64,000 nucleotides of DNA from Burkholderiales bacterium (lineage in GTDB: Bacteria; Pseudomonadota; Gammaproteobacteria; Burkholderiales; Burkholderiaceae_C), in assembly GCA_028868825.1 (NCBI GenBank), contig JAGWTU010000012.1, positions 1 to 64,000 of the forward strand, in the 5' to 3' direction. Below are positions 1,035 to 16,623 of the stretch, piece by piece. How positions within the stretch are numbered: the first letter of the stretch is position 1; every line of letters begins with the position of its first letter. Both the position numbers and the translations under genes were made by a program. Below the pieces are notes generated by a model. That model saw only the letters and a program-made list of their open reading frames with translations. It made no database searches and had not been told where the DNA came from.

Positions 1035-2549
1035 CTACGTCGCGGCGAAGATCGACTGCATCTTGAGGCGCTGCACCTTGCCCGAGGGCCCGCGCGGCAG
1101 GTCGTCGACGAAGCGCATCAGCTTGGGCGTCTTGTAGCGTCCGAGATGCTCGACGCAGAAGACGCGCAGGTCCTCGAGCTCGCAGACGGCACCTTCGCGC
1201 AGGACGATGCAGGCGGCGATCTCCTGGCCGTAATGCTTGTCCGGGATGCCCACCGCAGCGGCGTCGAGGACGGCGGGGTGACGCAACAGGATCTCGTCGA
1301 TCTCGCGCGGCGCGATGTTCTCGCCGCCCTTGATGATCAGCTCCTTGATGCGGCCGGAGATGTAGTAGTAGCCGTCGCCGTCGCAATGGCCCAGGTCGCC
1401 CGTGCGCAGCCAGCCGTCGGCGGTGAAGGCCGCTCGCGTCGCCGCCTCGTCCTTGTAGTAGCCCATCATCAATTGCGGACCGCGAACGGCGATCTCGCCG
1501 GTCTGCCCGTGCGGCAGCGGCTGCAGGTCCCGGTCTAGCACGCGAGCCTCGCAGCCGGAGGCCCGCCCGACCGACCCGATGCGGCGCGCGTCGGCCGCAA
1601 GCCCGTTGGAGAACACCGGGGCGGCGCTCTCCGTCAGGCCCATCGTTTCGATGATCGCGATGCCGAATCGCGCCTCGAAGGCGCGATGCTGCTCGGGCGC
1701 CAGCGGTGCCGAGGCGCTGCGGCAGAAGCGCAGGCCCTGCGGGGCCGCCGCGGCCTCGCCCTCGAGCAGGTAGGCGATCATCGTCGGCACCAGGTTGAGC
1801 CAGGTGCAGGCACTGCGTTGCGCCTGTTCCCAGAAGCGGTGGCTGGAGAACCGCGACGTCAGCGCCACGCTGCCGCGGTGCGCGAGCGGGGCGAGCATGG
1901 TCACGACGAAGGCATTGATGTGGTAGAGCGGCAGCACGCCCAGGACGCGGTCGTCCGGGCCCAGCCCATGCTCGATGCCGATGGCCAGGGCGTTGGCCGC
2001 GAGCGCGGCGTGACTCAGCATCACGCCCTTGGGCCGTCCGGTGGTGCCCGAGGTGTACATCAGCAACGCCGGCGTGTCGTCGGCCAGCGGCGGCAGTTCC
2101 GGGCCCGACCCGGGTTCGCCGGGCAGGGACGCGCCGGCGGGGTCGACGACCTGCAGGCGGATCGGGCGCGCGATCGACGGCAGCAGCTGGCGCATGCGGG
2201 CTTCCCACTCCGGCGCCACGCAGACCAGCTCGGCGTCCGAATGCTCGAGCACGTAACGCATCTGTTCGGGCTGCGCGAGGAGGTTGATCGGGTTGACCGT
2301 GCAGCCCGCCGCCATCGCGCCGAGCAGCAGGCGCAGGGTCTGCAGACCGTTGGGCAGCACCAGCGACACCGTGGCCCCCGGCGCCAGGCCGCCTTCGTGC
2401 AGCCACGACGCGACGCGCCGGCAGGAGTGCGACAGCTCGGCGTAGCCGAGGACGCGCCCGCTGTCGACGTCGACGGCGTAGGGCGCGTCGGGTGCCGCCG
2501 CTGCGGCCCGCTCGACCAGCGCCAGGATGCTGCGCGGCGCGGCACTCAT
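1035..2549 (-). CDS. sauT: AMP-forming acyl-CoA ligase, probable sulfoacetate-CoA ligase (SauT-like)
   Basis: 504-residue ANL-superfamily ligase. It has the ATP-binding P-loop LLMYTSGTTGRPKG, the hinge region GRIKELIIKGGENIAPREID and a C-terminal GPSGKVQRLK that carries the catalytic lysine. The ATG at 2549 overlaps the stop of the upstream aldehyde dehydrogenase by 4 bp (ATGA), which sets the start and implies translational coupling; the frame is open further upstream but that part is antisense shadow. In Cupriavidus necator SauT activates sulfoacetate to sulfoacetyl-CoA for reduction by SauS. The function here is inferred from the sauU-sauS-sauT order and from xsc, pta and soeABC nearby. 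The ligase fold alone does not prove the substrate. Confidence 0.82.
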   Translation of the reverse strand: MSAAPRSILALVERAAAAAPDAPYAVDVDSGRVLGYAELSHSCRRVASWLHEGGLAPGATVSLVLPNGLQTLRLLLGAMAAGCTVNPINLLAQPEQMRYVLEHSDAELVCVAPEWEARMRQLLPSIARPIRLQVVDPAGASLPGEPGSGPELPPLADDTPALLMYTSGTTGRPKGVMLSHAALAANALAIGIEHGLGPDDRVLGVLPLYHINAFVVTMLAPLAHRGSVALTSRFSSHRFWEQAQRSACTWLNLVPTMIAYLLEGEAAAAPQGLRFCRSASAPLAPEQHRAFEARFGIAIIETMGLTESAAPVFSNGLAADARRIGSVGRASGCEARVLDRDLQPLPHGQTGEIAVRGPQLMMGYYKDEAATRAAFTADGWLRTGDLGHCDGDGYYYISGRIKELIIKGGENIAPREIDEILLRHPAVLDAAAVGIPDKHYGQEIAACIVLREGAVCELEDLRVFCVEHLGRYKTPKLMRFVDDLPRGPSGKVQRLKMQSIFAAT

Positions 2550-3970
2550 GAGCGATCGCAGGCCTTGAAGAACTCGGCGAAGAGCGCCGTCGGATCGGCC
2601 TCGCGCGGCGCGATGGGACGCGAGATCCTCGTGATGTTCATGTAGTGCCGATAGTTCATGTTGTCGGAGAAATGGTTGCGGCCCCAGGTGCCGCAACCCA
2701 TCGAGAGCGAGAACGGCAGGCCGTTGTCGAAACTGCCGCCGGTGGCGATGCAATGGGCCTGGTTGAGGATCACCCGCGCGACCGGCAGCTTCAGGCCGAG
2801 TTCGAGCGCCCGCTGCGGCAGCTCGCTTTGCAGGCCGACCGAATGGCCGGCGCCCTGATGCGCATAGAGCCTTGCGACCAGCGCGGCGGCGGCGTCGAAA
2901 TCGCTCGCCCGGTACAGCGCCAGCACCGGGCAGAGCTTCTCGCCCGAGTAGGGGTGCGCCGGGCCGATGCCGTCCTCGTCGACCAGCAGCACGCTCGGCG
3001 CCCGCGCGGCGATCTCGGGCCAGCCGGCGCGCTCGGCGATGGTCGCCGCCGACTGTCCGATCACCGCGGGCGAGAGCCGGCCGTCGGGCCACATCAGGGC
3101 CGCGAGCCGGTCCTTGTGCGCGGCATCGAGCAGCACGGCGCCGCGGGCCGCGAGCGCCTCCAGCAGTTGCGCGCGCCGCGATTCGACGACGATCAGGCTG
3201 TTCTCCGACGAGCAGCTGGTGGCGTTGTCGAAGGTCTTGGAGCGCACGATGCGCTCGGCGGCCAGCGCGATGTCGGCGGTCTCGTCGACGATCACCGCGA
3301 CGTTGCCGGCGCCGACGCCGAAGGCCGGCGTGCCGCTCGCCTGGGCCGCGCGCACATTCGCCTGCGAGCCGGTGGCGACGACGAGATCGCAGCGCGCCAT
3401 CAGCTCCGCCGTCGCCGCCTTGCTCGCCGGGGCGGGCAGCAGCTGGACCAGGTCGCGCGGCACGCCGATGCGGTCGAACTCGGCGTGGATGAACTCGATC
3501 AGCCGCTGGGCGGTGGACCAGCCCTTGGGCGACGGCGCGACGATCACGGCGTTGCGGCATTTCAGTGCGTTGATGATCTTGTTCGCCGGCGTCGCCGCGG
3601 GGTTCGTCGACGGCGTGATCGCGCAGACCACGCCGACCGGCCGGGCGATGCGGATCAGGCCGCGATCGGGGTCCTCGTCGATCACGCCCACGCTGCGCGC
3701 GCCATGCAGGTCGCGCAGCAGGCCCAGCGTCTTGCGCTCGTTCTTGCGCAGCTTGTCGGCGACGTTGCCGATGCCGCTGTCGGCCACCGCCCGCTCGGCC
3801 AGTTCACGGTTGCGTGCAGGCTCGACGATCGCCCAGCCGGCGGCGGCGACGGCCAGATCGGCCTGGGCCTGCGTCCACTCGTTGGCGACGGCTTGCGCGG
3901 CGCGCGCGCGCGCCACGAGGGCGGCGACGGCGCCGCCTGTGGTGAGGGTGTCGATGGTCGGCTTGTCCAT
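2546..3970 (-). CDS. sauS: CoA-acylating aldehyde dehydrogenase, probable sulfoacetaldehyde dehydrogenase (SauS-like)
   Basis: 474-residue CoA-acylating aldehyde dehydrogenase related to the AdhE aldehyde domain and EutE. It shows the cofactor-contact segment AITPSTNPAATPANK (about residues 117-131), the glycine-rich GTPAFGVGAGNV, and the catalytic cysteine in NATSCSSENSL. In the sulfoacetate pathway SauS reduces sulfoacetyl-CoA to sulfoacetaldehyde, the substrate of Xsc, which is encoded 6 kb away. The gene overlaps the ligase by 4 bp and follows the MFS transporter after 41 bp, so the three are probably one operon. An acylating dehydrogenase acting on another short acyl-CoA is possible, but the neighbours argue strongly for the sulfonate. 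Confidence 0.87.
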   Translation of the reverse strand: MDKPTIDTLTTGGAVAALVARARAAQAVANEWTQAQADLAVAAAGWAIVEPARNRELAERAVADSGIGNVADKLRKNERKTLGLLRDLHGARSVGVIDEDPDRGLIRIARPVGVVCAITPSTNPAATPANKIINALKCRNAVIVAPSPKGWSTAQRLIEFIHAEFDRIGVPRDLVQLLPAPASKAATAELMARCDLVVATGSQANVRAAQASGTPAFGVGAGNVAVIVDETADIALAAERIVRSKTFDNATSCSSENSLIVVESRRAQLLEALAARGAVLLDAAHKDRLAALMWPDGRLSPAVIGQSAATIAERAGWPEIAARAPSVLLVDEDGIGPAHPYSGEKLCPVLALYRASDFDAAAALVARLYAHQGAGHSVGLQSELPQRALELGLKLPVARVILNQAHCIATGGSFDNGLPFSLSMGCGTWGRNHFSDNMNYRHYMNITRISRPIAPREADPTALFAEFFKACDRS

Positions 3971-4011
3971 GGGGTCGCGGAGTGGGGGAGTGCGGGGTTC
4001 GTGCCGGCCGC

Positions 4012-5334
4012 TCAGCTGCCGGCCGCGCTGGCGGCGCCGGCGGCGCGCACCTGCGGCGCGAGGCCCGCGGCGGGCGCCGGCTCGGTGTCGGCGATCTTGT
4101 TGTTGGGGTCGATGAACAGCGCGGCCACGATGCCGATGGCCAGCAGGCCCGCCGAGACCCCGAACGGCAGTTCATAGCTGCCGGTGGTCTGTATGAGGTA
4201 GCCGAAGACGACCGGCGAGATCATGCCGGCGACGCCGAAGCCGGTATTCATCATGCCGCCGGCCGTGCCCGCATAGGCGCCGGCGATGTCCAGCGGCAGG
4301 CTCCAGAGCACGGCGTTCGTCAGCTCGAGGAAGAAGAACGAGGCCGCCAGCAGCGCCACCGCCGTGATCGGATCGTGGACCGTGACGACCGGCAGGATGA
4401 AGACGAGGGCCCCGCCGAGGCCCAGGACCAGCATCGTGCGCCGCGCCGTCCGCAGGTTGCCCGTGCGCCGGAAGACGGCGTCGGAGACGACGCCGCCGAG
4501 CGTGTCGCCGACGACCCCGGCCAGCAGCGGCAGCGACGTGAAGAGCGCCAGATGCTTCAGATCGAAGCCGCGCGCGTCCTTCAGATACGAAGGCAGCCAG
4601 GTCAGGAAAACCCACAGCGACCAGCCGTAGCAGAAGTCGACGAAGGTGACGAGCCACATCTTGCGCACCATCTCGGCCCAGGGCGTGGCGCGGCGCGCGG
4701 CCTTCGGGCGGCTGGCGGTGACGCCGATCTCGGCCAGTTCGGCGGGCTGCACCCAGGGATGCTCGGCCGGATGGTCGCGGAAGATCCAGACGTAGAGCAC
4801 CGTCCAGACCAGGCTGATGACGCCCAGCACGATGAAGGACTCGCGCCAGCCGTAGGCCACCGCGATGCCGATGACGACGGGTGGCGTGACGGCGCCGCCG
4901 AGCCGCGCGAAGCTGTGGGTGATGCCCTGCGCGAAGCCGCGCTCCCGCGACGGCAGCCAGAACGAGAACGCCCGCGTCGCCGTCGGAAACGCGCCGCCCT
5001 CGCCGAAGCCGAGCACGAAGCGCGACAGCATCAGCACCCCGATGCCGCCGGCCAGCCCGCAGGCGATCGTGGCGCCAGCCCAGATCACGCTGAGCACCGT
5101 CAGCACCCGTCGCGGGCCGAACCGGTCGGCGCACCAGCCGCCGATGATCTGCATCGCCGCGTAGGGGTAGGCGAAGGCCGAGAACACGACGCCCAGCTGG
5201 GTCGAGCTGATGCCGAATTCCTTCTTGATCAGCGGACCGGCGACGCCGATGTTGACGCGATCGATATAGGCAATGAAGTACATCAGGCACATGACCGCGA
5301 GGATCACATGGCGTGTTTTGAAGGTCCGGTTCAT
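4012..5334 (-). CDS. sauU: MFS transporter, probable sulfoacetate importer (SauU-like)
   Basis: 440-residue major facilitator protein of the anion:cation symporter (phthalate permease-like) type, with about 12 hydrophobic segments. It starts with a short cytoplasmic tail, then a first helix with YIDRVNIGVAGP, and has the loop 2-3 motif GGWCADRFGPRR. ATG 5334 is chosen over the longer open frame because AGGAGA lies at ideal spacing and the protein then begins in typical family fashion. It is the first gene of the sauU-sauS-sauT unit. A sigma70-like promoter and two palindromes lie at 5373-5436. In Cupriavidus, SauU (sulfoacetate) and IseU (isethionate) are related MFS carriers, so import of either substrate is plausible. 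Confidence 0.85.
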   Translation of the reverse strand: MNRTFKTRHVILAVMCLMYFIAYIDRVNIGVAGPLIKKEFGISSTQLGVVFSAFAYPYAAMQIIGGWCADRFGPRRVLTVLSVIWAGATIACGLAGGIGVLMLSRFVLGFGEGGAFPTATRAFSFWLPSRERGFAQGITHSFARLGGAVTPPVVIGIAVAYGWRESFIVLGVISLVWTVLYVWIFRDHPAEHPWVQPAELAEIGVTASRPKAARRATPWAEMVRKMWLVTFVDFCYGWSLWVFLTWLPSYLKDARGFDLKHLALFTSLPLLAGVVGDTLGGVVSDAVFRRTGNLRTARRTMLVLGLGGALVFILPVVTVHDPITAVALLAASFFFLELTNAVLWSLPLDIAGAYAGTAGGMMNTGFGVAGMISPVVFGYLIQTTGSYELPFGVSAGLLAIGIVAALFIDPNNKIADTEPAPAAGLAPQVRAAGAASAAGS

Positions 5335-5625: not shown

Positions 5626-6381
5626 TCAGGCCTGCGGCCAGCCCAGCGCCTGGCTGCAGCGACCCGCGCATTCGAGCAGCAACGTCGACAGCCGGCGCGC
5701 CTGCGCTCGCGTGTAGCGGATCGCCGGCAGGGTGATGCCGACCGCCAGCACCGGCTCGCTGCGTGCATTGAAGACGGGCGCCCCGAGCCCGCAGACGCCC
5801 AGGCGCCATTCCTGCCGGTTTTCCGAGTACCCGCGCGCCCGCACCTGGTCGAGGTCGGCGACCAGCGCCGACAGGTCCGTCAGCGTGTGGGGCGTGTGGG
5901 CCGTCAGCGGACCCAGGCGGGCCGCGAGCGCGGCCGCGTCGAGGCGCAGCGCCGCCAGCAGCGCCTTGCCCGAGGCGACGCAGTAGGCCGGCGCCCGCCC
6001 GCCGACGCGCGAGTACGCCGCGACGGGCAAGGGGCTGTCGATCTTGTCCAGGTAGATGATCTCGGCGCCTTCGAGCGCCGCGAGATGGATGGTCTCGCCC
6101 GTTTCCTGCGCCAGGACGGCCAGGTGCGGACGCAACGTCGACTTGAGGTCGGTGGCATCGTCGACCAGCGAGCCCAGTTCGAACAGGCGCAGGCTGGCCC
6201 GGTAGCCCAGCCCCGCGGTGTCCTGGACCGCCCAGCCGCAGGCCACCAGGGTCTGCAGCGTGCGGTGCGCGTTGCTGCGCTGCAGGTCGAAGGCCTGCGC
6301 GACCTCGACGAGACGGCAGGAACGCTGCTGGCGCGCCAGCCATTCGATGACGGCGAGGCCTTTGGCAAGGGTGGAATCCAT
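5626..6381 (-). CDS. IclR-family transcriptional regulator, candidate regulator of the sau genes
   Basis: 251-residue IclR protein. The N-terminal winged helix (about residues 5-65) contains LVEVAQAFDLQRSNAHRTLQ as the helix-turn-helix, followed by the IclR effector domain with AYCVASGKALLAAL. The start at ATG 6381 gives the usual family length; the longer open frame would add unrelated arginine-rich sequence. It is the gene directly upstream of sauU on the same strand, the position where a sau regulator would be expected, and the palindromes at 5373-5409 lie in the gap between them. The effector is unknown; sulfoacetate, isethionate or a CoA ester are candidates. It follows the CobT-like gene by 94 bp. 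Confidence 0.85.
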   Translation of the reverse strand: MDSTLAKGLAVIEWLARQQRSCRLVEVAQAFDLQRSNAHRTLQTLVACGWAVQDTAGLGYRASLRLFELGSLVDDATDLKSTLRPHLAVLAQETGETIHLAALEGAEIIYLDKIDSPLPVAAYSRVGGRAPAYCVASGKALLAALRLDAAALAARLGPLTAHTPHTLTDLSALVADLDQVRARGYSENRQEWRLGVCGLGAPVFNARSEPVLAVGITLPAIRYTRAQARRLSTLLLECAGRCSQALGWPQA

Positions 6382-6475: not shown

Positions 6476-8197
6476 TCAGCGCGCGCTCGCGCCGCGCGGC
6501 GGCAGCGCCAGCGCGGCCAGCAGGCCGCGCAGATCGGCGTCGCACGATGGCTCGGGGTCGGCCCAGGAATGGACGCGCGCACAGCCCGCCACGGGCTCGG
6601 CCCCCAGGCCCAGCGAGATGAGCTCGACGTCGCCGCGGCGTTCCTCGCGGGCGAGGGTGTCGAGGCGGTGCTGCTCGAGCAGCCACGGATCGTTGGCGAG
6701 CACGGTCGCGGCGTCGTGCGCCGCGCCGTCGCCGACCAGCAGCAGCACGCGGCGCGCCGCGTCGCGCGCGCGCAGCCGCGCGCAGGCCCAGGCGATGGCT
6801 TCGCCGTCGAGGCCCTCGCGGAACAGTTCCGGGCGCAGCAGCGCGGCGATGGCGGCGCGCGACCGCCGCCAGGAACGCGCGGCGCTCTTGAACACCAGGT
6901 GCTGGCGCTCGTTGAGCCGCCCCGGCTGGCGCGGCCGGCCGCCGCGCGACCAGTCGCGCCGGCAGCGCCCGCCGTTCCAGGCCGCGGTCGTGTAGCCGAG
7001 CAGTTCGCTTTCGATGCCGGCGAGGTCGAGCGCCCGCAACAGCACGTCGAGGCGCACCGCCAGCCGCTCCATGTGCGCCTTCATCGATCCCGAGCAGTCG
7101 AGCAGGACGGTCACGCAGGCGTCGGCGCGCGTCACCACGCGGTCGCGCATGAAGAGCGCGCGCTCCGACGGCGAGGTGATCAGCAGCGCGACGCGGCGGC
7201 CGTCGATGCGCCCCTCCTCGTGGGCGCCGTCGTGGCCCTCATGCTGCGGCCGGGCATACAGGGCCTGGAGCTCGCGCGCCAGCCGCGCGACGTTCGGCGC
7301 GGCGCGGCCCACGCGCCGGTCGAGGTCGAGGCGCAGCTCGCGCAGCGTCTGCGCCCGCACCAGGGTCTCGACCGCGTCCTCGCGGTCGTAGGCGCGGGTG
7401 TAGACGCGGTAGTCGGGGGCGTCGGCGCCGGCCAGGTCGCGCGCGGCGGCCGCGTCCCGGCCGTCGGGGGGCGGGTCGACGAAGCGGAAGTCGGCGACGG
7501 CGGCCTCGACGGCACCGTCGGCCGCGTCGTCGTGCGTCAGCGGTGCCTCCGGCATGCCGGCCTGCCGCAGCAGGCCGGCGATGGCGTCGGCGTAGGCCCG
7601 CGCATGGACGGCAAAGGCCGCCTGATGCGCGCGTTCGCGCTGCATGCCGGCGAGCGCGACGCCGAGCAGCGGCGCCAGGCCCGCGCGCGTGGCCTCGAGC
7701 CGATCCGCGATCGCCTCGGGCACCGGGTCGCCGCTGAGGTGGGCGCGGCAGACCTGGGCCGCGGTGAACAGGAGCAGGCCGCTCGCGCTGTCGGCCAGGC
7801 CGGCGTCGACATAGGCCTGCGACCAGGCTTCGAAGCGCCGGCGCATGTTCCGGCGCACGCCCGGCAGGCCCGCGGGCACGAGCGATTCGCAGCGCAGCTG
7901 CTCGAGCAGCTCGAACACCATGTGCGCCAGCGCGTCGGCCGGGCAGCGCCGGCGGTGGCTCGTCGCGTCGCTGTGGCGGTGGCGCAGGGCGACGGCATCG
8001 GTGGCGCCGCGCAGGGTGCGCAGGTCCGCGGGTCCCGGAAAAGGCCGCAGATGCGGTGCGCCCAGCGGCCAGGGCCGGCGCCCGACCAGCAGCTGGCGGC
8101 CGCGCCAGTCCAGCGTCGGCACGCCGCTGACGGCGCGCAGGGCCGCGCCGTGCAGCGCATCGGGGCGCGGCCGCATCGCGGCCGGCGCGCCGTTCAT
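6476..8197 (-). CDS. CobT-like VWA-domain protein
   Basis: 573-residue protein resembling the cobaltochelatase subunit CobT. The C-terminal von Willebrand A domain has an intact MIDAS motif DCSGSM (about residue 366) and the typical CobT stretch AWNGGRCRRDW followed by PGRLNERQHLVFKSA. The middle has an acidic, low-complexity part (about residues 240-270). The start ATG 8197 overlaps the stop of the CobS-like gene by 4 bp. In aerobic B12 synthesis CobT pairs with CobS and the large CobN to insert cobalt. No CobN or other cob gene is present here. The setting in a sulfonate cluster suggests a dedicated metal-insertion or remodelling role for a neighbouring enzyme, comparable in layout to CoxD/CoxE, but that is inference. 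Confidence 0.8.
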   Translation of the reverse strand: MNGAPAAMRPRPDALHGAALRAVSGVPTLDWRGRQLLVGRRPWPLGAPHLRPFPGPADLRTLRGATDAVALRHRHSDATSHRRRCPADALAHMVFELLEQLRCESLVPAGLPGVRRNMRRRFEAWSQAYVDAGLADSASGLLLFTAAQVCRAHLSGDPVPEAIADRLEATRAGLAPLLGVALAGMQRERAHQAAFAVHARAYADAIAGLLRQAGMPEAPLTHDDAADGAVEAAVADFRFVDPPPDGRDAAAARDLAGADAPDYRVYTRAYDREDAVETLVRAQTLRELRLDLDRRVGRAAPNVARLARELQALYARPQHEGHDGAHEEGRIDGRRVALLITSPSERALFMRDRVVTRADACVTVLLDCSGSMKAHMERLAVRLDVLLRALDLAGIESELLGYTTAAWNGGRCRRDWSRGGRPRQPGRLNERQHLVFKSAARSWRRSRAAIAALLRPELFREGLDGEAIAWACARLRARDAARRVLLLVGDGAAHDAATVLANDPWLLEQHRLDTLAREERRGDVELISLGLGAEPVAGCARVHSWADPEPSCDADLRGLLAALALPPRGASAR

Positions 8198-9165
8198 GCC
8201 GGCACGCTGGCCGCCGCGGCGTCGAGTTCGCGACCGAAGCAGCGCTGGAAATATTCGGCGACAAGCGGCCGCTCGGCGTCGTCGCACTTGTTCGCGAAGG
8301 ACAGGCGGAAGGCGAGCGCGAGGTCGCCGAAGATCTCGACGTTCTCGGCCCAGCTGATGACGGTGCGGGGCGACATCAGCGTCGTCAGGTCGCCGCAGGC
8401 GAAGCCCTTGCGCGTGAGATCGGCGAGCGCGACCATGCGGCGCAGCACATCCTGCCCCGCCTCGTCCGCGAAACCGGGCACGCGCGCCTGCACGATCAGC
8501 GCCTCTTCCTCGGCCGGCAGGTAGTTCAGCGCGGCGACGATGTTCCAGCGGTCGATCTGCCCGTGATTCAGGCGCTGCGCGCCGTGGTAGAGGCCGTTGA
8601 GGTTGCCCAGGCCCACCGTGTTGGCGGTCGCGAAGAGGCGGAAGTAGGGATGCGGCTGCAGCACGCGGTTCTGGTCCAGCAGCGTGAAGCCGCCGTCGCG
8701 CTCGAGCACGCGCTGGATCACGAACATCACGTCCGGCCGGCCGGCGTCGTATTCGTCGAACACCAGCGCCACCGGGCGCTGCAGCGCCCAGGGCACGATG
8801 CCTTCCTGGAATTCGGTGACCTGGCGGCCGTCGCGCACGACGACGGCGTCGCGACCGACGAGGTCGAGCCGGCTGATCTGCCCGTCCAGGTTGAGCCGCA
8901 CGCAAGGCCAGTTCAGGCGCGCCGCGACCTGCTCGACATGGGTCGACTTGCCGGTGCCGTGCAGGCCCTGAACGAGCACGCGGCGGTTGCGCGCGAAGCC
9001 GGCCAGGATCGCCAGCGTGACCTCGGGATTGAAGCGGTAGGCGGCATCGATCTCGGGCACATGCTCGTCGCGCTCGGCGAAGGCCGGCACCATCAGGTCG
9101 CTGGCGATGCCGAAGAGTTCGCGCACGCTGGCGCGGCGGTCGGGTCGCAGCGGGGCCTCGGCCAT
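8194..9165 (-). CDS. CobS-like AAA+ ATPase (MoxR superfamily)
   Basis: 323-residue AAA+ ATPase very close in pattern to CobS along its whole length. Walker A is GLHGTGKST (about residues 67-75) and Walker B VALVFDEYD (132-140). The pore and sensor region includes RLFATANTVGLGNLNGLYHG, and the end LVAEYFQRCFGREL matches the CobS C-terminus. It begins 11 bp after the IclR gene stop and overlaps the CobT-like start by 4 bp, so the two proteins are made together and probably form a complex. CobS hydrolyses ATP to drive cobalt insertion with CobN; with no CobN in the window the client here is unknown. The call as CobS family is firm, the substrate is not. Confidence 0.87.
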   Translation of the reverse strand: MAEAPLRPDRRASVRELFGIASDLMVPAFAERDEHVPEIDAAYRFNPEVTLAILAGFARNRRVLVQGLHGTGKSTHVEQVAARLNWPCVRLNLDGQISRLDLVGRDAVVVRDGRQVTEFQEGIVPWALQRPVALVFDEYDAGRPDVMFVIQRVLERDGGFTLLDQNRVLQPHPYFRLFATANTVGLGNLNGLYHGAQRLNHGQIDRWNIVAALNYLPAEEEALIVQARVPGFADEAGQDVLRRMVALADLTRKGFACGDLTTLMSPRTVISWAENVEIFGDLALAFRLSFANKCDDAERPLVAEYFQRCFGRELDAAAASVPA

Positions 9166-9176
9166 GGGGCGGCGCC

Positions 9177-10019
9177 TCAGCCGGCGGCGCGCCGGCGCGC
9201 GGAGGCCGGCGGCGCGACATCGAGCCCGCTCAGCGCCGTCGCCGCGCGCTGCAGCGCGGGCAGCCAGAGGCGGGCCTTGTCCGCGTCCATGCGCATCACC
9301 GGCGCCTGCACTGCCACGCAGAGGTTGGACGGCGCGCCGGACCCGGACTGCACGCGCACGGCGATGCACAGCAGGCCGGGCAGGAACTCCTCGTCGTCCA
9401 GCGCGTAGCCGGCCTCGGCCACCTGCCGGATCTCGGCCTCGAGGGCGTCGAAGTCGGTCAGCGTCTTGGGCGTGTAGCGGGCCAGCGGCGCCGCGTTCAA
9501 CAGCCGCCGGCGCTGCGCCGGGCTCATCTGCGCCAGGAACACCTTGCCGCTGGCCGAGCAATGCACCGGCACGCGCGAGCCCGGGTGCAGATAGAAGCGC
9601 AGCGGCGCGGCCGTCTCGACGCGGTCGAGATAGACGACCTCGTCGCCCGACAGCGCCGTCAGGTTGCAGCTCTCGCCGATCTCCTCGACGAGATGCCGCA
9701 ACACGGCATGACGCGCGCCATGCAGGCTGTCGTTGAGCAGCAGGTTCTCGGCCAGCCGGCGCAGGCGCGTGCCGGTGCCGTACTGGCGTCCGCCGTCCTC
9801 GCGCTGGAGCAGGCCGGCCATCTCGAGCTGATGAAGCATGCGGTGCAGCGTCGGCTTGGGCCAGCCGGTGGCGTCGACGAGATCGCGCAGGCTCAGGCGC
9901 TGATCCTTGGCGGCGATCAGTTCGAGCAGCGCGAACAGCCGCAGGGTCGGGGTATCGGCGCCATCGACTTCGGCGGCCGCGAGAGGGGTGGACGGGGCGT
10001 TCATGACAGCTTGCATCAT
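9177..10019 (-). CDS. IclR-family transcriptional regulator, candidate regulator of xsc
   Basis: 280-residue IclR protein. The N-terminal helix-turn-helix lies around SLRDLVDATGWPKPTLHRML and the effector domain has VPVHCSASGKVFLAQM. Three closely spaced ATGs (10019, 10016, 10004) are possible; 10019 is chosen because GGAACGGAAC precedes it. The gene diverges from xsc across 135 bp that contain the xsc promoter and a perfect 21-bp palindrome. It leads into the CobS/CobT-like pair after 11 bp, so regulator and chelatase-like genes are probably co-transcribed. It shares only family-level features with the other IclR gene in the cluster, so the two may answer to different intermediates. Confidence 0.87.
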   Translation of the reverse strand: MMQAVMNAPSTPLAAAEVDGADTPTLRLFALLELIAAKDQRLSLRDLVDATGWPKPTLHRMLHQLEMAGLLQREDGGRQYGTGTRLRRLAENLLLNDSLHGARHAVLRHLVEEIGESCNLTALSGDEVVYLDRVETAAPLRFYLHPGSRVPVHCSASGKVFLAQMSPAQRRRLLNAAPLARYTPKTLTDFDALEAEIRQVAEAGYALDDEEFLPGLLCIAVRVQSGSGAPSNLCVAVQAPVMRMDADKARLWLPALQRAATALSGLDVAPPASARRRAAG

Positions 10020-10107: not shown

Positions 10108-10128
10108 TTCGGAACGCAATGTTCCGAA
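10108..10128 (+). promoter_or_regulatory. Perfect palindromic operator candidate upstream of xsc
   Basis: TTCGGAAC-N5-GTTCCGAA is an exact inverted repeat with 8-bp arms. It begins about 10 bp after the predicted transcription start, a position suited to a repressor. Two further GTTCC half-sites in tandem lie at 10021-10030 beside the divergent IclR start and could allow autoregulation. IclR binding is inferred from position. Confidence 0.65.
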
Positions 10129-10154
10129 AACTTGCATCTCAACCGGAGCCCGCC

Positions 10155-11963
10155 GTGTCCGCAAAAGCACCTGTCCACACCTCACCCGCCGTCAGCGGCG
10201 TGCAGAAGATGACCCCGTCCGAGGCCTTCGTCGAAACCCTGGTGGCGAACCGCGTCACCGACATATTCGGCATCATGGGTTCCGCGTTCATGGACGCGAT
10301 GGATATCTTCGCCCCGGCCGGCATCCGGCTCATCCCGGTCGTGCATGAACAGGGCGCCGCCCACATGGCCGACGGCTATGCCCGCGTGAGCGGCCGCCAC
10401 GGCGTCGTCATCGGCCAGAACGGCCCCGGCATCAGCAACTGCGTGACGGCCATCGCGGCGGCGTACTGGGCGCACAGCCCGGTCGTCATCATCACGCCCG
10501 AGACCGGCACCATGGGCATGGGCCTGGGCGGCTTCCAGGAAGCCAACCAGCTGCCGATGTTCCAGGAGTTCACGCGCTACCAGGGCCATGTGAACAATCC
10601 CAAGCGCATGGCCGAGTACACCGCGCGCTGCTTCGACCGCGCGATCTCCGAGATGGGCCCGACCCAGCTCAACATCCCGCGCGACTACTTCTACGGCGAG
10701 ATCCAGTGCGAGATCCCGCAGCCGATGCGCGTCGAGCGCGGCGCCGGCGGCGAGAACAGCCTGAACGCCGCGGCCGAGCTGCTGGCGAGTGCGAAGTTCC
10801 CGGTCATCCTGGCCGGTGGCGGCGTCGTGATGGGCGACGCGGTCGAGGAATGCCGGGCGCTGGCCGAGCGGCTGGGTGCGCCGGTCGTCACCGGCTACCT
10901 GCGCAACGACGCCTTCCCCGCCAAGCATGCGCTGTGGGCCGGCCCGCTCGGGTACCAGGGCTCGAAGGCGGCGATGAAGCTGATCGCCCAGGCCGACGTG
11001 GTGCTGGCGCTGGGTTCGCGCATGGGCCCGTTCGGCACGCTGCCGCAGCATGGCATGGACTACTGGCCCAAGGACGCGAAGATCATCCAGGTCGAGGCCG
11101 ACCACACGAATCTCGGCCTGGTGAAGAAGATCAGCGTCGGCATCCACGCCGACGCGAAGGCGGCGGCCAAGGCGCTGCTGGGCCGGCTGCAGGGCCGCGC
11201 GCTGGACTGCGACGCGAACCAGCCCGAGCGCGCCCGCATCATCGCCGCCGAGAAGGCGGCCTGGGAGCAGGAACTCGACGGCTGGACCCACGAGCGCGAT
11301 GCCTACAGCCTCGACATGATCGAGGAGCAGAAGAAGGAAGGCGGCCGCTGGCTGCACCCGCGCCAGGTGCTGCGCGAGCTGGAGAAGGCGATGCAGCCGC
11401 GCGCCATGGTCTCGACCGACATCGGCAACATCAATTCGGTCGCCAACAGCTACCTGCGCTTCGACGAGCCGCGCTCGTTCTTCGCCCCGATGAGCTTCGG
11501 CAACTGCGGCTACGCGCTGCCGACGATCATCGGCGCCAAGTGCGCGGCGCCGGACCGCCCGGCCATCGCCTATGCGGGCGACGGGGCCTGGGGCATGAGC
11601 ATGGTCGAGATCATGACCTGCGTGCGCCACGACATCCCGGTCACCGCGGTCGTGTTCCACAACCGGCAATGGGGCGCCGAGAAGAAGAACCAGGTCGACT
11701 TCTACAACCGGCGCTTCGTCGCCGGCGAGCTCGAGAGCGAGAGCTTCGCCGGCATCGCCAAGGCCATGGGCGCCGAGGGCATCGTCGTCGACCGGCTCGA
11801 GGACGTCGGGCCGGCACTGCGCCGCGCCGTCGACGCCCAGATGCAGGAGGGCAAGACGACGGTGATCGAGATCATGTGCACGCGCGAACTCGGCGACCCG
11901 TTCCGCCGCGACGCGCTGTCCAAGCCGGTGCGCTTCCTCGCGAAATACAAAGACTACGTCTGA
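10155..11963 (+). CDS. xsc: Sulfoacetaldehyde acetyltransferase, thiamine-diphosphate dependent
   Basis: Xsc cleaves sulfoacetaldehyde with phosphate to acetyl phosphate and sulfite, the desulfonation step of this pathway. The 602-residue protein has the family length. The N-terminal ThDP domain has the cofactor-activating glutamate in PVVHEQGAAHMADGY (about E65). The C-terminal ThDP motif runs from GDGAWGMSMVE (about 475) to FHNRQWGAEKKNQ, the pattern of Xsc rather than of acetolactate synthase. GTG 10155 is preferred to ATG 10119 because CCGGAG lies 6-7 nt before it and the upstream ATG falls inside the palindromic operator. pta follows after 8 bp. Confidence 0.95.
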   Translation: MSAKAPVHTSPAVSGVQKMTPSEAFVETLVANRVTDIFGIMGSAFMDAMDIFAPAGIRLIPVVHEQGAAHMADGYARVSGRHGVVIGQNGPGISNCVTAIAAAYWAHSPVVIITPETGTMGMGLGGFQEANQLPMFQEFTRYQGHVNNPKRMAEYTARCFDRAISEMGPTQLNIPRDYFYGEIQCEIPQPMRVERGAGGENSLNAAAELLASAKFPVILAGGGVVMGDAVEECRALAERLGAPVVTGYLRNDAFPAKHALWAGPLGYQGSKAAMKLIAQADVVLALGSRMGPFGTLPQHGMDYWPKDAKIIQVEADHTNLGLVKKISVGIHADAKAAAKALLGRLQGRALDCDANQPERARIIAAEKAAWEQELDGWTHERDAYSLDMIEEQKKEGGRWLHPRQVLRELEKAMQPRAMVSTDIGNINSVANSYLRFDEPRSFFAPMSFGNCGYALPTIIGAKCAAPDRPAIAYAGDGAWGMSMVEIMTCVRHDIPVTAVVFHNRQWGAEKKNQVDFYNRRFVAGELESESFAGIAKAMGAEGIVVDRLEDVGPALRRAVDAQMQEGKTTVIEIMCTRELGDPFRRDALSKPVRFLAKYKDYV

Positions 11964-11971
11964 GCGCCGCG

Positions 11972-12922
11972 ATGAGCAGCGCCGCGCCGTTCGCCGGCCA
12001 CCCAAGGCTGGCCGCCCTCGTCGAGCGCGCCCGGTTGAAGGCCGCCGCGCGGGGGCTGCCGCGGGTCGGACTCGTCTACCCCTGCGACGCGCTGGCGCTG
12101 GACGCCGCGCGCCGCATGGTCGAACTCGGCCTGGCGCAGCCGGTGCTGATCGGCGCGCGCGCGGTGATCGAGCGCGTCGCCGCCGGCTGCGGCGTCGCGA
12201 CGCGCGACTTCGACATCGTCGACACGCCGGACGCCCCCGACCTCGCCGCCCGCCGCGCCGTCGAACTGGTGCGCGCGGGCGCCCTGCAGGCGCTGATGAA
12301 GGGCTCGCTGCACACCGACATCCTGATGGCGGCGATCGTCGACCGCGCCGGCGGCCTGCGCGGCGCGACCCGCATCAGCCACGCGTTCGTGTTCGACCTG
12401 CCGCGCTATCCCAAGCTGCTCTCGCTGGCCGATTGCGTCGTCAATATCCATCCCCTGGTACCGGCCAAGCGCGACATCCTGAGCAACGCGATCGGCCTGC
12501 TGCACACGCTGGGCATCGCGCGACCCAAGGTCGCGATCGTCGCCGCCGTCGAGACCGTCAACCCGGCGATACCGGCGACCGAGGACGCCGCGGCCCTGGT
12601 CGAGATGGCGCGCCAGGGCGCCTGGCCGGGCGCCGTCGTCGAGGGCCCGTTCGGCTTCGACAACGCGATCTCGGCCGAAGCGGCGCGCATCAAGGGCATC
12701 GTCTCGACGGTGCCGGGCGACGCCGACCTGCTGCTGCTGCCCGACCTCAACAGCGCGAACATCCTGTACAAGAACTTCAACTACATCGGCGGCGGCGAAT
12801 GCGCCGGCCTGGTGCTCGGCGCCACGCACCCGATCGTGCTGACCTCGCGCGCCGACACGCTGGCCGCGCGCATGGCGTCCATCGCGCTGGCGGTGCTGGC
12901 CGCGCCCGCCACCGGACATTGA
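11972..12922 (+). CDS. pta: Phosphate acetyltransferase
   Basis: 316-residue single-domain phosphate acetyl/butyryl transferase (PTA_PTB fold). Visible family segments include LMKGSLHTDILMAAIV, the substrate-loop region ANILYKNFNYIGGGECAG and VEGPFGFDNAIS. It converts the acetyl phosphate made by Xsc to acetyl-CoA, so that carbon enters central metabolism. The xsc-pta pair is the standard arrangement in sulfonate degraders. ATG 11972 follows the xsc stop by 8 bp, and soeA begins 3 bp after its own stop, so the genes are one transcript. Confidence 0.93.
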   Translation: MSSAAPFAGHPRLAALVERARLKAAARGLPRVGLVYPCDALALDAARRMVELGLAQPVLIGARAVIERVAAGCGVATRDFDIVDTPDAPDLAARRAVELVRAGALQALMKGSLHTDILMAAIVDRAGGLRGATRISHAFVFDLPRYPKLLSLADCVVNIHPLVPAKRDILSNAIGLLHTLGIARPKVAIVAAVETVNPAIPATEDAAALVEMARQGAWPGAVVEGPFGFDNAISAEAARIKGIVSTVPGDADLLLLPDLNSANILYKNFNYIGGGECAGLVLGATHPIVLTSRADTLAARMASIALAVLAAPATGH

Positions 12923-12925
12923 TCC

Positions 12926-15862
12926 ATGTTCAAGCTGTTTTCCGATGAGCCGCTGCACGACCCGCTGGCCGCGCCGGCGCTCGACGCCACGACGACGGTC
13001 AAGACGACGACCTGCTACATGTGCGCCTGTCGCTGCGGCATCCGCGTCCATCTGCGCGAGGGCGAGCAGGGGCCGCAGATCAGCTACATCGACGGCAACC
13101 CCGCGCACCCGCTCAATCACGGCGTGATCTGCGCCAAGGGTTCGGCCGGCATCATGAAGCAGTACTCGCCGGCGCGCCTGACGCGGCCGCTGCTGCGCAA
13201 GCCCGGCAGCGAGCGCGGGGCGGGCGAATTCGAGCCCATCTCCTGGGAGCGCGCGTTCGAGATCCTGACCGAGCGCCTGGGCCGCATCCGCGCCACCGAC
13301 CCGAAGCGCTTCGCCCTCTTCACCGGCCGCGACCAGATGCAGGCGCTGACCGGGCTGTTCGCGCGCCAGTTCGGCACGCCCAACTACGCGGCGCACGGCG
13401 GCTTCTGCTCGGTCAACATGGCCGCCGGGATGATCTACACGATCGGCGGATCGTTCTGGGAATTCGGCGGCCCCGACCTCGACCACGCCAAGCTGTTCGT
13501 GATGATCGGCACGGCCGAGGACCACCACAGCAACCCGCTCAAGATCGCGATCTCGAAGTTCAAGCGCGGCGGCGGGCGCTTCATCTCGATCAACCCGATC
13601 CGCACCGGCTACTCGGCCATCGCCGACGAATGGATCCCGATCAAGCCCGGCACCGACGGCGCCCTGTTCATGGCCCTGCTGCACGAGCTGATCGCGTCCG
13701 ACCTCGTCGACCATGCGTTCCTGAAGCGCTACACGAACGCGCCGCAGCTGGTCGTGCTCGACGAGGGCGCGCGCGAGGGGCTGTTCGCGTTCGACCCCGA
13801 CCCGGCGCAGGGCCCCCCGGGCGACGGCCGCCATCCGCACAACAAGCTGGTCTGGGACCGGTGCAGCGGCAGCGCGATGCAGGCCTACCCGCAGGGCATC
13901 GCCGAGGGCTGCGATCCGGCACTCGAGGGCCACTACACGCTCGCCGACGGCAGCCGCGTCGCCCCGGCCTTCCAGCTGCTGCGCGAGCGCGTCGCCGGCT
14001 GCAGCCCGGAATGGGCGGCCGCGATCACCGGCATCGGCGCCGACCGCATACGCCAGCTCGCGCGCGAGATGGGCCGCACGGCGCTGCAGCAGGCCTTCGA
14101 GCTGCCGATCCCCTGGACCGATGCCTGGGGCCGGCGCCACCCGAGCACGCCGGCGCGGCCGGTGGCCTTCCACGCCATGCGCGGCCTCGCGGCGCATTCC
14201 AACGGCTTCCAGACGGTGCGCGCGCTGGCCGTGCTGATGAGCGTGCTCGGCACCATCGACGCCCCCGGCGGCTTCCGCCACAAGGCGCCCTACCCGCGCC
14301 ACATCGTGCCGAACTACCGCGCCTTCAACGACCCGGGGATGATCCAGCCGAACACGCCGCTGAATGCCGCGCCGCTGGGCTTTCCGGCCAGCCCCGAGGA
14401 GCTGGCGATCAACCCGGACGGCTCGCCGATCCGCATCGACCACGCGTTCTCCTGGGAGCACCCGCTGTCGGCCCACGGCCTGATGCACAACGTCATCACG
14501 AATGCGGTGCGCGGCGACCCCTATCGCATCGACACGCTGCTGATCTTCATGGCCAACATGGCCTGGAACTCGAGCATGAACACGATGGCGGTGCGGGAGA
14601 TGCTCAACCGCAAGGACGCGCAGGGCGAGCACATGATCCCGTTCCTGGTCGTGTGCGACGCGTTCCAGAGCGAGATGGTCGCGTTCGCCGACCTCGTGCT
14701 GCCCGACACCACCTACCTCGAGCGACACGACGTGATGAGCATGCTCGACCGCCCGATCTCGGAATTCGACGGCCCGGTGGACTCGGTGCGCATCCCGGTG
14801 CTGCCGCCCACCGGCGAGTGCAAGCCCTTCCAGGAGGTGCTGGTCGAACTCGCGTCGCGCCTGAAGTTCCCGGCCTTCACGACGGCCGAGGGCGGGCGCA
14901 AGTTCAGCGGCTACACCGACTTCATCGTCAATTTCCAGCCCCAGCCCGGCATCGGCTTCCTGATGGGCTGGCGCGGCGCCGACGGCAGCCAGGCGCTGCG
15001 CGGCGCGCCCAATCCCAGGCAGTGGGAGATGTACGCCGCGAACAACTGCGTGTTCCAGTACAAGATGCCCGAGGGCATGCACTACATGCGCAACTGGAAC
15101 CGGGACTACCTCGACTTCGCCCAGGACAAGGGCTGGCGCCAGAAGAACGACCCGATCCAGCTCGCCATCTATTCCGACACGCTGCAGAGCTTCCGCCTGG
15201 CGGCCCAGGGCAAGAGCGGCGGCCGCCAGCCCCCCGACGCCCTGCGCGAGCGCATCGCCACCTATTTCGACCCGCTGCCGTTCTGGTACCCGCCGCTCGA
15301 GGAGGCGGCCACCGATCTGCAGGCCTTCCCGCTCAACGCGGTGACGCAGCGGCCGATGGCGATGTACCACTCCTGGGATTCGCAGAACGCCTGGCTGCGC
15401 CAGATCCACAGCCACAACTACCTGCACGTCAACCCGATCACCGCGCGGGCCGCCGGCATCGCGGACGGCGGCTGGACCTGGGTCGAGAGCGCCTGGGGCC
15501 GGGTGCGCTGCATGCTGCGCTACAGCGAGGCGGTCGAGCCCGGCACGGTGTGGACCTGGAACGCGATCGGCAAGGCCGACAGCGCCTGGCAGCTCGCGCC
15601 GGGCGCCGACGAGGCGCGCAAGGGATTCCTGCTCAACCACCTGATCTCGGAGGAACTGCCGCACGGCGCGGGCACGATCAGCAACTCGGACCCGATCACC
15701 GGCCAGGCCGGCTGGTACGACGTGCGGGTGCGCATACGCCCGGCCGCACCGGACGAGCCCGAACACAGCTCGCCGCAGGTCACCGCCGTGCCGGCACCGC
15801 CGGGCGTGCGCGGCGGCGCGACCGGCGTGCTGCGCTACTTCGCCGGGAAGCGCAAGCCATGA
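12926..15862 (+). CDS. soeA: Membrane-bound sulfite dehydrogenase, molybdopterin subunit
   Basis: 978-residue molybdopterin oxidoreductase of the DMSO reductase family. An N-terminal [4Fe-4S] site uses C30, C33, C37 and C69 (CYMCACRC, later GVICAKGS). The molybdopterin domain follows, and a C-terminal dinucleotide-binding domain begins near IHSHNYLHVNPITA. No twin-arginine signal is visible, consistent with the cytoplasmic Soe enzyme of Allochromatium and Ruegeria. It would oxidise sulfite released by Xsc to sulfate. The Fe-S and membrane subunits follow with overlapping codons. Related enzymes act on polysulfide, thiosulfate or arsenite, so SoeA is chosen largely from the xsc-pta context. 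Confidence 0.85.
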   Translation: MFKLFSDEPLHDPLAAPALDATTTVKTTTCYMCACRCGIRVHLREGEQGPQISYIDGNPAHPLNHGVICAKGSAGIMKQYSPARLTRPLLRKPGSERGAGEFEPISWERAFEILTERLGRIRATDPKRFALFTGRDQMQALTGLFARQFGTPNYAAHGGFCSVNMAAGMIYTIGGSFWEFGGPDLDHAKLFVMIGTAEDHHSNPLKIAISKFKRGGGRFISINPIRTGYSAIADEWIPIKPGTDGALFMALLHELIASDLVDHAFLKRYTNAPQLVVLDEGAREGLFAFDPDPAQGPPGDGRHPHNKLVWDRCSGSAMQAYPQGIAEGCDPALEGHYTLADGSRVAPAFQLLRERVAGCSPEWAAAITGIGADRIRQLAREMGRTALQQAFELPIPWTDAWGRRHPSTPARPVAFHAMRGLAAHSNGFQTVRALAVLMSVLGTIDAPGGFRHKAPYPRHIVPNYRAFNDPGMIQPNTPLNAAPLGFPASPEELAINPDGSPIRIDHAFSWEHPLSAHGLMHNVITNAVRGDPYRIDTLLIFMANMAWNSSMNTMAVREMLNRKDAQGEHMIPFLVVCDAFQSEMVAFADLVLPDTTYLERHDVMSMLDRPISEFDGPVDSVRIPVLPPTGECKPFQEVLVELASRLKFPAFTTAEGGRKFSGYTDFIVNFQPQPGIGFLMGWRGADGSQALRGAPNPRQWEMYAANNCVFQYKMPEGMHYMRNWNRDYLDFAQDKGWRQKNDPIQLAIYSDTLQSFRLAAQGKSGGRQPPDALRERIATYFDPLPFWYPPLEEAATDLQAFPLNAVTQRPMAMYHSWDSQNAWLRQIHSHNYLHVNPITARAAGIADGGWTWVESAWGRVRCMLRYSEAVEPGTVWTWNAIGKADSAWQLAPGADEARKGFLLNHLISEELPHGAGTISNSDPITGQAGWYDVRVRIRPAAPDEPEHSSPQVTAVPAPPGVRGGATGVLRYFAGKRKP

Positions 15863-16623
15863 TGCGCTGGCTCCAGGAGTGGCTGGCGCCGGCGGCGGCA
15901 CCGGGCGCCGCGGCCGCGGCATCGACGCCGCCCGCGCCGGCCGCCGCCGCCGACCGCGTGCGCGCGCTGCCGGGCGAGACGCTGGCGCGCCAGCTCGCGC
16001 TCGTGATCGACCTCAATGTCTGCGTCGGCTGCCATGCCTGCGTGACCTCGTGCAAGCAATGGAACACCTCGGGCAGCGCCGGCACGCTGTCGGACCAGCT
16101 GCCCTACGGCGCCGAGCCCAGCGGCACCTTCTTCAACCGCGTCCAGACCTACGAGGCGGGGCAGTTCCCGGCCACCGAGACGATCCATTTCCCGAAGAGC
16201 TGCCTGCATTGCGAGGATCCGCCCTGCGTGCCGGTCTGCCCGACCGGCGCGAGCTACAAGCGCCGGGAGGACGGCATCGTGCTCGTCGACTACGACAAGT
16301 GCATCGGGTGCAAGTACTGCGCCTGGGCCTGCCCCTACGGCGCGCGCGAGATCGACGAGGACCGGCAGGTGATGACCAAGTGCACGCTGTGCGTCGACCG
16401 CATCTACGACGAGCAGCTGCCCCAGGAGGATCGCAAGCCGGCCTGCGTCAAGGCCTGCCCGACCGGCGCGCGCCTGTTCGGCGACGTCAAGGACCCGGCG
16501 TCCGAGGTCTCGCGCGCGATCCGCGAGCGCGGCGGCTACGCCCTGATGCCCGAGTGGGAGACCCGGCCCGCGAATCAGTATCTGCCGCGCCGGCCCACGG
16601 CCGATTCGGAGGACGCGACTTGA
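15859..16623 (+). CDS. soeB: Sulfite dehydrogenase, iron-sulfur subunit
   Basis: 254-residue four-cluster ferredoxin subunit. Cysteine groups are CVGCHACVTSC, CLHCEDPPCVPVCPTG, CIGCKYCAWACPYG, and CTLC with ACVKACPTGA, which can hold four [4Fe-4S] clusters. It would pass electrons from SoeA to the membrane subunit. An alanine/proline-rich N-terminal stretch (about residues 10-35) precedes the first cluster and has no clear signal. The start ATGATG at 15859 overlaps the soeA stop by 4 bp; 15862 is an equally possible start. Confidence 0.87.
   Translation: MMRWLQEWLAPAAAPGAAAAASTPPAPAAAADRVRALPGETLARQLALVIDLNVCVGCHACVTSCKQWNTSGSAGTLSDQLPYGAEPSGTFFNRVQTYEAGQFPATETIHFPKSCLHCEDPPCVPVCPTGASYKRREDGIVLVDYDKCIGCKYCAWACPYGAREIDEDRQVMTKCTLCVDRIYDEQLPQEDRKPACVKACPTGARLFGDVKDPASEVSRAIRERGGYALMPEWETRPANQYLPRRPTADSEDAT

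Follow-up and report, generated by a model that had tools for sequence, protein, structure and literature searches.

What does a pair of CobS- and CobT-like proteins do among genes for sulfonate degradation? The question is raised by a stretch of 64,000 nucleotides from a Burkholderiales bacterium (assembly GCA_028868825.1, contig JAGWTU010000012.1, positions 1 to 64,000 of the forward strand), here called the window, in which a gene for a CobS-like AAA+ ATPase and a gene for a CobT-like protein with a von Willebrand factor A (VWA) domain lie close to xsc, the gene for sulfoacetaldehyde acetyltransferase (Xsc). The degradation routes of isethionate and sulfoacetate pass through Xsc, as does that of taurine. 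In the aerobic conversion of taurine to acetyl phosphate and sulfite, Xsc is a central step (PMC5320631). A preliminary description of the locus had suggested an ATP-driven machine serving either the molybdenum enzyme SoeABC or Xsc. Our analysis makes it fairly probable that the pair is a remodelling machine of the MoxR AAA+/VWA kind, comparable to CbbQO and NorQD, which is dedicated to one branch of Xsc, here called A-type, and likely reactivates this enzyme or reloads its cofactor.

Co-occurrence of the pair with A-type Xsc

A CobT search in a sample of 399 genomes of the order matched 20 genomes, of which 12 scored at least 322 bits and the next 186 bits; the other eight, namely G083, G169, G255, and G119 with no more than 186 bits and four genomes with about 21 bits or less, were not counted as carriers of the xsc-type CobT. 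Xsc proteins above the TIGR03457 cut-off were found in 48 genomes, 14 of them with an A-type Xsc (more than 1020 bits) and 34 with other Xsc (981 bits or less). All 12 pair carriers had an A-type Xsc on the same contig as the pair; the two were within approximately 10 kb of each other in ten cases, whereas the distance was 21 kb in G314 and 28 kb in G158. None of the 34 order-sample genomes with only other Xsc carried an xsc-type CobT, G083 having a CobT of another type on a contig different from that of its xsc, and no pair was observed near the other xsc genes in the regions of 10-14 kb read from 18 of these genomes (0/18). The association between the pair and A-type Xsc in the order sample was strong (Fisher 1e-9, ignoring kinship). 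Moreover, in a sample of 398 genomes of the phylum the seven genomes with an xsc-type CobT (at least 619 bits) were exactly the seven with an Xsc match at E 1e-180 or better, when the remaining 130 of the 137 matched genomes (384 bits or less) were set aside as carrying canonical or intermediate CobT. Since five of these seven carriers are also part of the order sample, only G574 and G636 are new.

A wider scan with an alignment of CobT-like proteins, from which the best 80 of at least 286 relatives were kept, identified pair loci in Burkholderiales, Rhodocyclales, Halomonadaceae and other Gammaproteobacteria, as well as in the Actinomycetota Amycolatopsis, Streptomyces and Rhodococcus. The fetched flanks encoded Xsc in 70 of the 80 loci when partial matches were admitted and in 65 under a stricter rule, and under the latter rule it was present in 45 of the 49 loci with both flanks complete. 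It was also found within 12 kb of the pair in all six plasmid records examined (H2-H7). The xsc gene was divergent and upstream of the pair in 39 loci, convergent and downstream in 22 and co-directional in four, and the link has therefore survived rearrangement. Five of the ten genomes whose pair locus had no nearby Xsc carry Xsc elsewhere, including all three in which both flanks were complete (L109, L126, and L138; A-type). The claim of a machine dedicated to Xsc is thus supported in so far as the pair follows one Xsc clade in the order sample (12/12 carriers), in the phylum sample (7/7) and in the wider scan.

Neighbouring genes and other possible clients

Gene calls based on GC frame fail on loci of low GC content, and neighbours were therefore counted using homology-based open reading frames (ORFs). 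When all ORFs of the 49 loci with complete flanks were clustered to look for a gene that accompanies the pair more steadily than xsc, the counts came out too high (for instance 48 for Pta) owing to antisense shadow ORFs and the merging of clusters, and direct homology counts were used instead. In these 49 loci, IclR regulators were encoded near 46 pairs, Xsc near 45, Pta near 39, TauY near 29, GMC oxidoreductases near 22 and SoeA near four; across all 80 loci the numbers were 66 for IclR, 49 for Pta, 31 for TauY, 24 for GMC, 17 for aldehyde dehydrogenase and eight for SoeA-like proteins. IclR genes are thus found near the pair about as often as xsc, but belong to several kinds. The supplier of sulfoacetaldehyde varies from locus to locus between taurine dehydrogenase, a GMC oxidoreductase and sulfoacetate genes, with putative route names based on similarity, whereas Xsc, which is common to all routes, remains constant.

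These counts also bear on whether another enzyme of sulfonate catabolism, namely SoeABC with its molybdenum, taurine dehydrogenase TauXY or Pta, could be the client of the pair. Pta and TauY are frequent neighbours, and tauY-like genes are closer neighbours of the pair than xsc is in G314 (L047), Cupriavidus lacunae (L126) and Modicisalibacter (L138). However, SoeA was found near only four pairs with complete flanks, compared to 45 for Xsc; TauY had no match in the window below 30 kb nor in the eight actinobacterial loci; and the Pta proteins near the pair are of divergent kinds, as in L052, where identity was 56% to one reference and 33% to another. We consider such a client very unlikely. 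SoeABC, one of the two clients named at the outset, was rejected because SoeA is encoded near just 8 of the 80 pairs.

Relationship to cobaltochelatase

Both proteins belong by domain to the families of the aerobic cobaltochelatase CobNST, the nearest sequence family of the pair: the Pfam domains CobS_N and AAA_5 in the CobS-like protein and CobT and CobT_C in the CobT-like protein all scored above their gathering scores, and a sequence search of the PDB returned solved CobS and CobT structures at the top, with midasin and CbbQ far below. The CobS-like protein shares 61-67% identity with nine canonical, urease-linked and other CobS, and a close match to CobS as proposed in the preliminary description was therefore found, while the match to CobT is distant: the CobT-like protein reached 233.2 bits against the TIGR01651 equivalog model, far below the NCBIfam cut-off of 759.05. 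The CobS-like protein also remained below its equivalog cut-off (517.9 bits against 558.55 for TIGR01650). In a CobS tree built from 38 of 39 loci (L179 yielded no CobS row), a branch with a support of 99 in the Shimodaira-Hasegawa-like approximate likelihood ratio test (SH-aLRT) separated 27 xsc-type rows from nine canonical, urease-linked or other rows, although, depending on the rooting, the 27 may be paraphyletic. Because of the missed cut-offs, the separate branch and the many carriers in which no CobN-family gene was detected, we conclude that the pair, which is moreover linked to xsc, is not an ordinary cobaltochelatase.

CobN-family genes were found in 6 of the 12 pair carriers of the order sample, including the genome studied here, and none was detected in the other six, among which G093 is closed in one contig and 100% complete. 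Among 48 isolate carriers, for which completeness is not stated, 28 had a CobN-family gene and none was detected in 20. The genome studied here encodes a single CobN-family protein, on contig C33, and no other match to CobS or CobT of this kind; likewise, no second strong CobS was found in any of the order-sample pair carriers, which the search covered. The preliminary description had named a cobN elsewhere in the genome with these two proteins as its only CobS/CobT partners as an argument against a dedicated machine, and the genome holds precisely such a gene, yet it does not carry that inference. The CobN-family gene of C33 (L017 13841-18479, L018 185-2422) is accompanied by genes for a TonB receptor, a MotA/ExbB-like protein and a DUF2149 protein, and the best NCBIfam model of the receptor is TonB-hemin, although at 163.9 bits it remains below the cut-off of 316.85. 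By this layout, and without use of an HmuS model, the locus resembles the haem loci of the de-chelatase HmuS. HmuS removes iron from haem and is reported to be independent of ATP (PMC12583661), and would differ from the pair in this respect. Furthermore, the high-scoring cobN of G133 (1295 bits) adjoins a ChlI-type ATPase gene of its own. Given the HmuS-like layout, the ATP-independence of HmuS, the many carriers without CobN and the partner of the G133 cobN, the lone gene on C33 is not decisive.

The pair could nevertheless be a metal-insertion machine that works in trans with a CobN-family protein as a cobalt or haem chelatase and merely happens to lie beside xsc. The domain families, the single CobN-family gene of this genome in company of no other CobS/CobT, and the CobN-family genes in 6/12 and 28/48 carriers (in the latter 28 a second CobS/CobT was not searched for) would agree with such a role. 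On the other hand, no CobN-family gene was detected in 20 of the 48 isolates (again with completeness not stated) or in half of the order-sample carriers, among them the complete G093, for which a role with CobN is thereby refuted; both equivalog cut-offs were missed; the CobS-like proteins branch apart from canonical CobS; and in G133 cobN has a ChlI-type neighbour of its own. A chelatase role with CobN is hence disfavoured, and we regard it as the least probable of the explanations weighed here.

Some loci of related proteins were observed alongside. Contig C12 of G083 (L058 and L151) carries a CobN-family gene and, approximately 10 kb away, CobS/CobT-like genes of the other type; two TonB receptor genes and a gene for an Fe-S protein lie in between, and together these may make up a complete metal or haem system of the CobN/S/T kind. 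In three alphaproteobacterial plasmids (L062, L063, and L064) annotated cobS and cobT lie near DnaJ-domain and BolA genes and the annotated stretch contains no cobN, indicating that a missing nearby cobN is not unusual by itself. In plasmid pPO70-1 of Pandoraea oxalativorans (L046, 5517-12975) a CobS/CobT pair is located directly behind ureE- and ureG-like genes of a urease cluster; its CobS clusters with alphaproteobacterial CobS in the tree, and it may represent another switch of client.

Comparison with MoxR AAA+/VWA systems

The motifs expected of an active AAA+/VWA machine are intact, as had been proposed. Walker A (K73, S74, and T75) and Walker B (D137 and E138) of the CobS-like protein did not vary in any of the 16 aligned rows, and the metal ion-dependent adhesion site (MIDAS) of the CobT-like protein, DxSxS-T-D with D367, S369, S371, T404, and D490, was invariant in 16/16 and 34/34 aligned rows. 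The pair shares these motifs, and a lasting genetic association with a single putative client, here Xsc, with MoxR AAA+/VWA systems of the CbbQO and NorQD type.

The Rubisco activase CbbQO is a close parallel in organization, as it likewise consists of an AAA+ protein (CbbQ) and a VWA adaptor with intact MIDAS (CbbO) encoded beside one enzyme. Its client branch also bears sequence marks of its own, as A-type Xsc does; CbbQO-linked Rubisco is reported to have a C-terminal HK/R motif that is absent from other forms (PMC4660213). The pair differs in that its client would be an enzyme dependent on thiamine diphosphate (ThDP) and in that the proteins are of the CobS and CobT families, with weak sequence kinship of the CobS-like protein to CbbQ (E about 3e-08). 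NorQD is an AAA+/VWA pair, too. The single-chain model predicted for the CobT-like protein (mean predicted local distance difference test, pLDDT, 76.9; predicted template modelling score 0.52) shows a helical domain at the N-terminus, then a linker of low confidence (residues 217-260) and a VWA domain, and its top fold matches in the PDB were the NorD VWA chains of NorQD complexes (TM-score, the template modelling score, 0.55 on the target). This order of domains is alike in NorD (PMC9976466, PMC13036017). In contrast, the client of NorQD is membrane-bound and receives iron (PMC13036017), whereas the domains of Xsc mark it as a ThDP enzyme.

A general layout of MoxR protein plus VWA protein is also that of CoxD/CoxE, which serve the maturation of CO dehydrogenase, and the resemblance noted earlier holds to this extent. 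The CobT-like protein matched CobT and CobT_C alone and no CoxE-type family in a Pfam scan to E 0.001, and identity with CoxDE was rejected; genes for CO dehydrogenase were not searched for.

Marks of A-type Xsc and a possible mechanism

In a tree of 53 of the 104 Xsc rows collected, A-type Xsc formed one clade (SH-aLRT 100). An insertion at about positions 377-381 that includes E380 was present in all 86 A-type rows, a number that comprises second copies and the two unpaired Xsc, and absent from the 18 other Xsc rows; among the rows compared it is thus restricted to the A-type clade. E123 was conserved in 85 of the 86 rows and replaced by lysine or arginine in the other Xsc. In the predicted model of Xsc (mean pLDDT 77.5) the insertion comes after a helix that ends at 378, and the confidence of this stretch is modest. 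Since CbbO (PMC4660213) and NorD (PMC9976466, PMC13036017) are reported to bind their clients via the MIDAS, which contacts an acidic residue on the client surface, E380 and E123 are candidate contacts for the MIDAS of the CobT-like protein.

By analogy to CbbQO and NorQD, we infer that the pair would interact physically with Xsc and remodel it at the expense of ATP. The CobS-like subunits would form a hexameric ATPase ring into which the CobT-like protein plugs through its VWA domain, with its MIDAS metal and an acidic residue on the surface of Xsc forming the docking contact. The strain put on Xsc by ATP hydrolysis would then allow cofactor in a dead state to leave and fresh ThDP-Mg2+ to enter. 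The most speculative part concerns why such repair should be needed, as Xsc may damage its cofactor by freeing sulfite beside its own ThDP; sulfite cleaves thiamine (PMC8839250), and repair of sulfite-damaged ThDP could be the purpose of the machine. In its full form, this proposal makes the pair the first AAA+ activase of a ThDP enzyme, expelling sulfite-destroyed or trapped ThDP from A-type Xsc, reloading ThDP-Mg2+ and docking its MIDAS on the acidic E380 loop, and we hold it only tentatively, as rather unlikely to be correct in every part.

The main rival of such an activase is a maturase that loads Mg2+ and ThDP into newly made A-type Xsc or assists in the assembly of its subunits, and thus acts once per enzyme instead of repairing it. 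ThDP enzymes generally load ThDP-Mg2+ unaided, which speaks against this role, as do the two genomes that have an A-type Xsc without the pair. The evidence from genomic linkage is the same for maturase and activase, and a precedent exists in NorQD, which inserts metal by remodelling (PMC13036017). On balance, a maturase seems unlikely to us.

Probable shared regulation of the pair and xsc

The palindrome GGAAC-N5-GTTCC occurs in the gap between the IclR gene and xsc in 11 of 34 divergent loci, the other 23 gaps being without the exact motif, and the background amounts to 25 copies across the 1.43 Mb of all 80 loci. Its recurrence in this gap suggests that the pair and xsc answer to one regulator through a candidate operator, and IclR1, the regulator encoded next to the pair, probably co-regulates both. 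Because the ATG of xsc at 10119 sits within the palindrome, the true start of this gene is more likely the GTG at 10155.

A common regulator gene and candidate operator would also suit a pair that handles by-product stress of growth on C2 sulfonates, caused for example by sulfite or metal, and that is co-regulated with xsc without any contact to Xsc. Retention of the pair even when unlinked from xsc agrees with any role in the same pathway. However, the pair tracks a single Xsc clade and was found in 0 of the 34 genomes with only other Xsc, though all Xsc should release sulfite, and we give this explanation little chance.

Observations that weigh against dedication to Xsc

Several observations weigh against a machine dedicated to A-type Xsc and its repair. 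G142 and G328 hold an A-type Xsc as well as pta-like and tauY-like genes but no pair, showing that the pair is not strictly required, and the Xsc of both are nested inside the A-type clade. As A-type Xsc is one clade, its co-occurrence with the pair may reflect one gain and one loss instead of many independent events, and since both unpaired Xsc retain E380 and E123, ancestry alone could explain these residues. Other branches of Xsc, which are also expected to make sulfite, do without the pair. The 80 loci come from a CobT search whose seed rows were for the most part linked to xsc, and IclR (46/49) and Pta (39/49) are common near the pair, too. Moreover, in L109, L126, L138, G314, and G158 the pair is closer to tauY-like, sauST-like or GMC genes than to xsc. 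Finally, no Xsc match was obtained in five of the ten genomes with an Xsc-less pair locus; there the pair lies approximately 2.3 kb or less from the contig end, and loss of an xsc neighbour at the contig end is a possible explanation.

The A-type xsc clusters of G142 and G328 (L156 and L157) had no IclR or TauR match either, and in their relatives G009 and G299 CobS is on a long branch.

Layout of the locus

Both ORFs of the pair were confirmed (Table 1); they overlap by 4 bp, and from spacing and strand we infer co-transcription with the gene for IclR1. The latter is divergent from xsc, which runs opposite to the pair together with the pta-like and soeABC-like genes. As stated in the preliminary description, no B12 gene lies nearby, none being present among the called genes scanned at 1035-26375, and the sole CobN-family protein of the genome is that of contig C33. 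SauS scored 717.9 bits against NF047625, above the cut-off of 600. The molybdenum oxidoreductase is presumably Soe, SauT and SauU are names presumed from gene position, and the GMC-family oxidoreductase may be an isethionate dehydrogenase.

Table 1. Features of the pair locus and its surroundings (window coordinates)
Feature	Position	Strand	Basis or remark
CobS-like MoxR-class AAA+ ATPase, 323 aa	8194-9165	-	Pfam, NCBIfam, Walker alignment
CobT-like adaptor, 573 aa: N-terminal helical domain, low-confidence linker, C-terminal VWA with MIDAS	6476-8197	-	
IclR1 regulator	9177-10019	-	11 bp upstream of CobS-like gene
Palindrome GGAAC-N5-GTTCC, candidate IclR1 operator for both transcription units	10111-10125		IclR1/xsc gap
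xsc, sulfoacetaldehyde acetyltransferase, A-type, proposed client	10119-11963	+	TIGR03457, 1041 bits (cut-off 676)
pta-like phosphate acetyltransferase	11972-12922	+	PTA_PTB; 3' of xsc
soeABC-like molybdenum oxidoreductase (Mo subunit, Fe-S subunit, DmsC anchor)	12926-17555	+	Domains; context
Sulfoacetate genes: AMP-ligase (SauT-like), SauS, MFS transporter (SauU-like)	1035-5334	-	AMP-binding, NF047625, MFS; context
IclR2 regulator	5626-6381	-	Downstream of CobT-like gene; context
GMC-family oxidoreductase, choline-dehydrogenase-like	17616-19283	+	Context

Two of the other pair loci showed features of their own. In plasmid pNK83 of Caballeronia sp. NK8 (L041, 13633-16250), genes for a CobW-family GTPase and an amidohydrolase lie beside the pair, and across the 80 pair loci GTPase-like matches were seen in nine and amidohydrolase-like matches in ten. 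In a plasmid of Cupriavidus sp. EM10 (L045, 11989-13661) the CobT-like gene is spread over two frames, owing to a frameshift or a sequencing error.

Significance

MoxR AAA+/VWA pairs are a known kind of machine, and what would be new here is the class of client, as to our knowledge ThDP enzymes are unfamiliar in this role. Among the open-access papers searched, which leave out most subscription papers so that an earlier mention is possible, we found none linking Xsc with CobT, CobS, MoxR or von Willebrand, and the main text of PMC5320631 contains no match for cobalt, chelatase or AAA. If our explanation is true, the label "cobalt chelatase" on such genes, as in Caballeronia sp. NK8, is misleading, and a helper comparable to Rubisco activase would exist for ThDP enzymes as well. 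In addition, with CobS/CobT relatives beside urease in Pandoraea oxalativorans and near a CobN-family gene in G083, these pairs would offer a system for asking how MoxR/VWA machines switch their clients.

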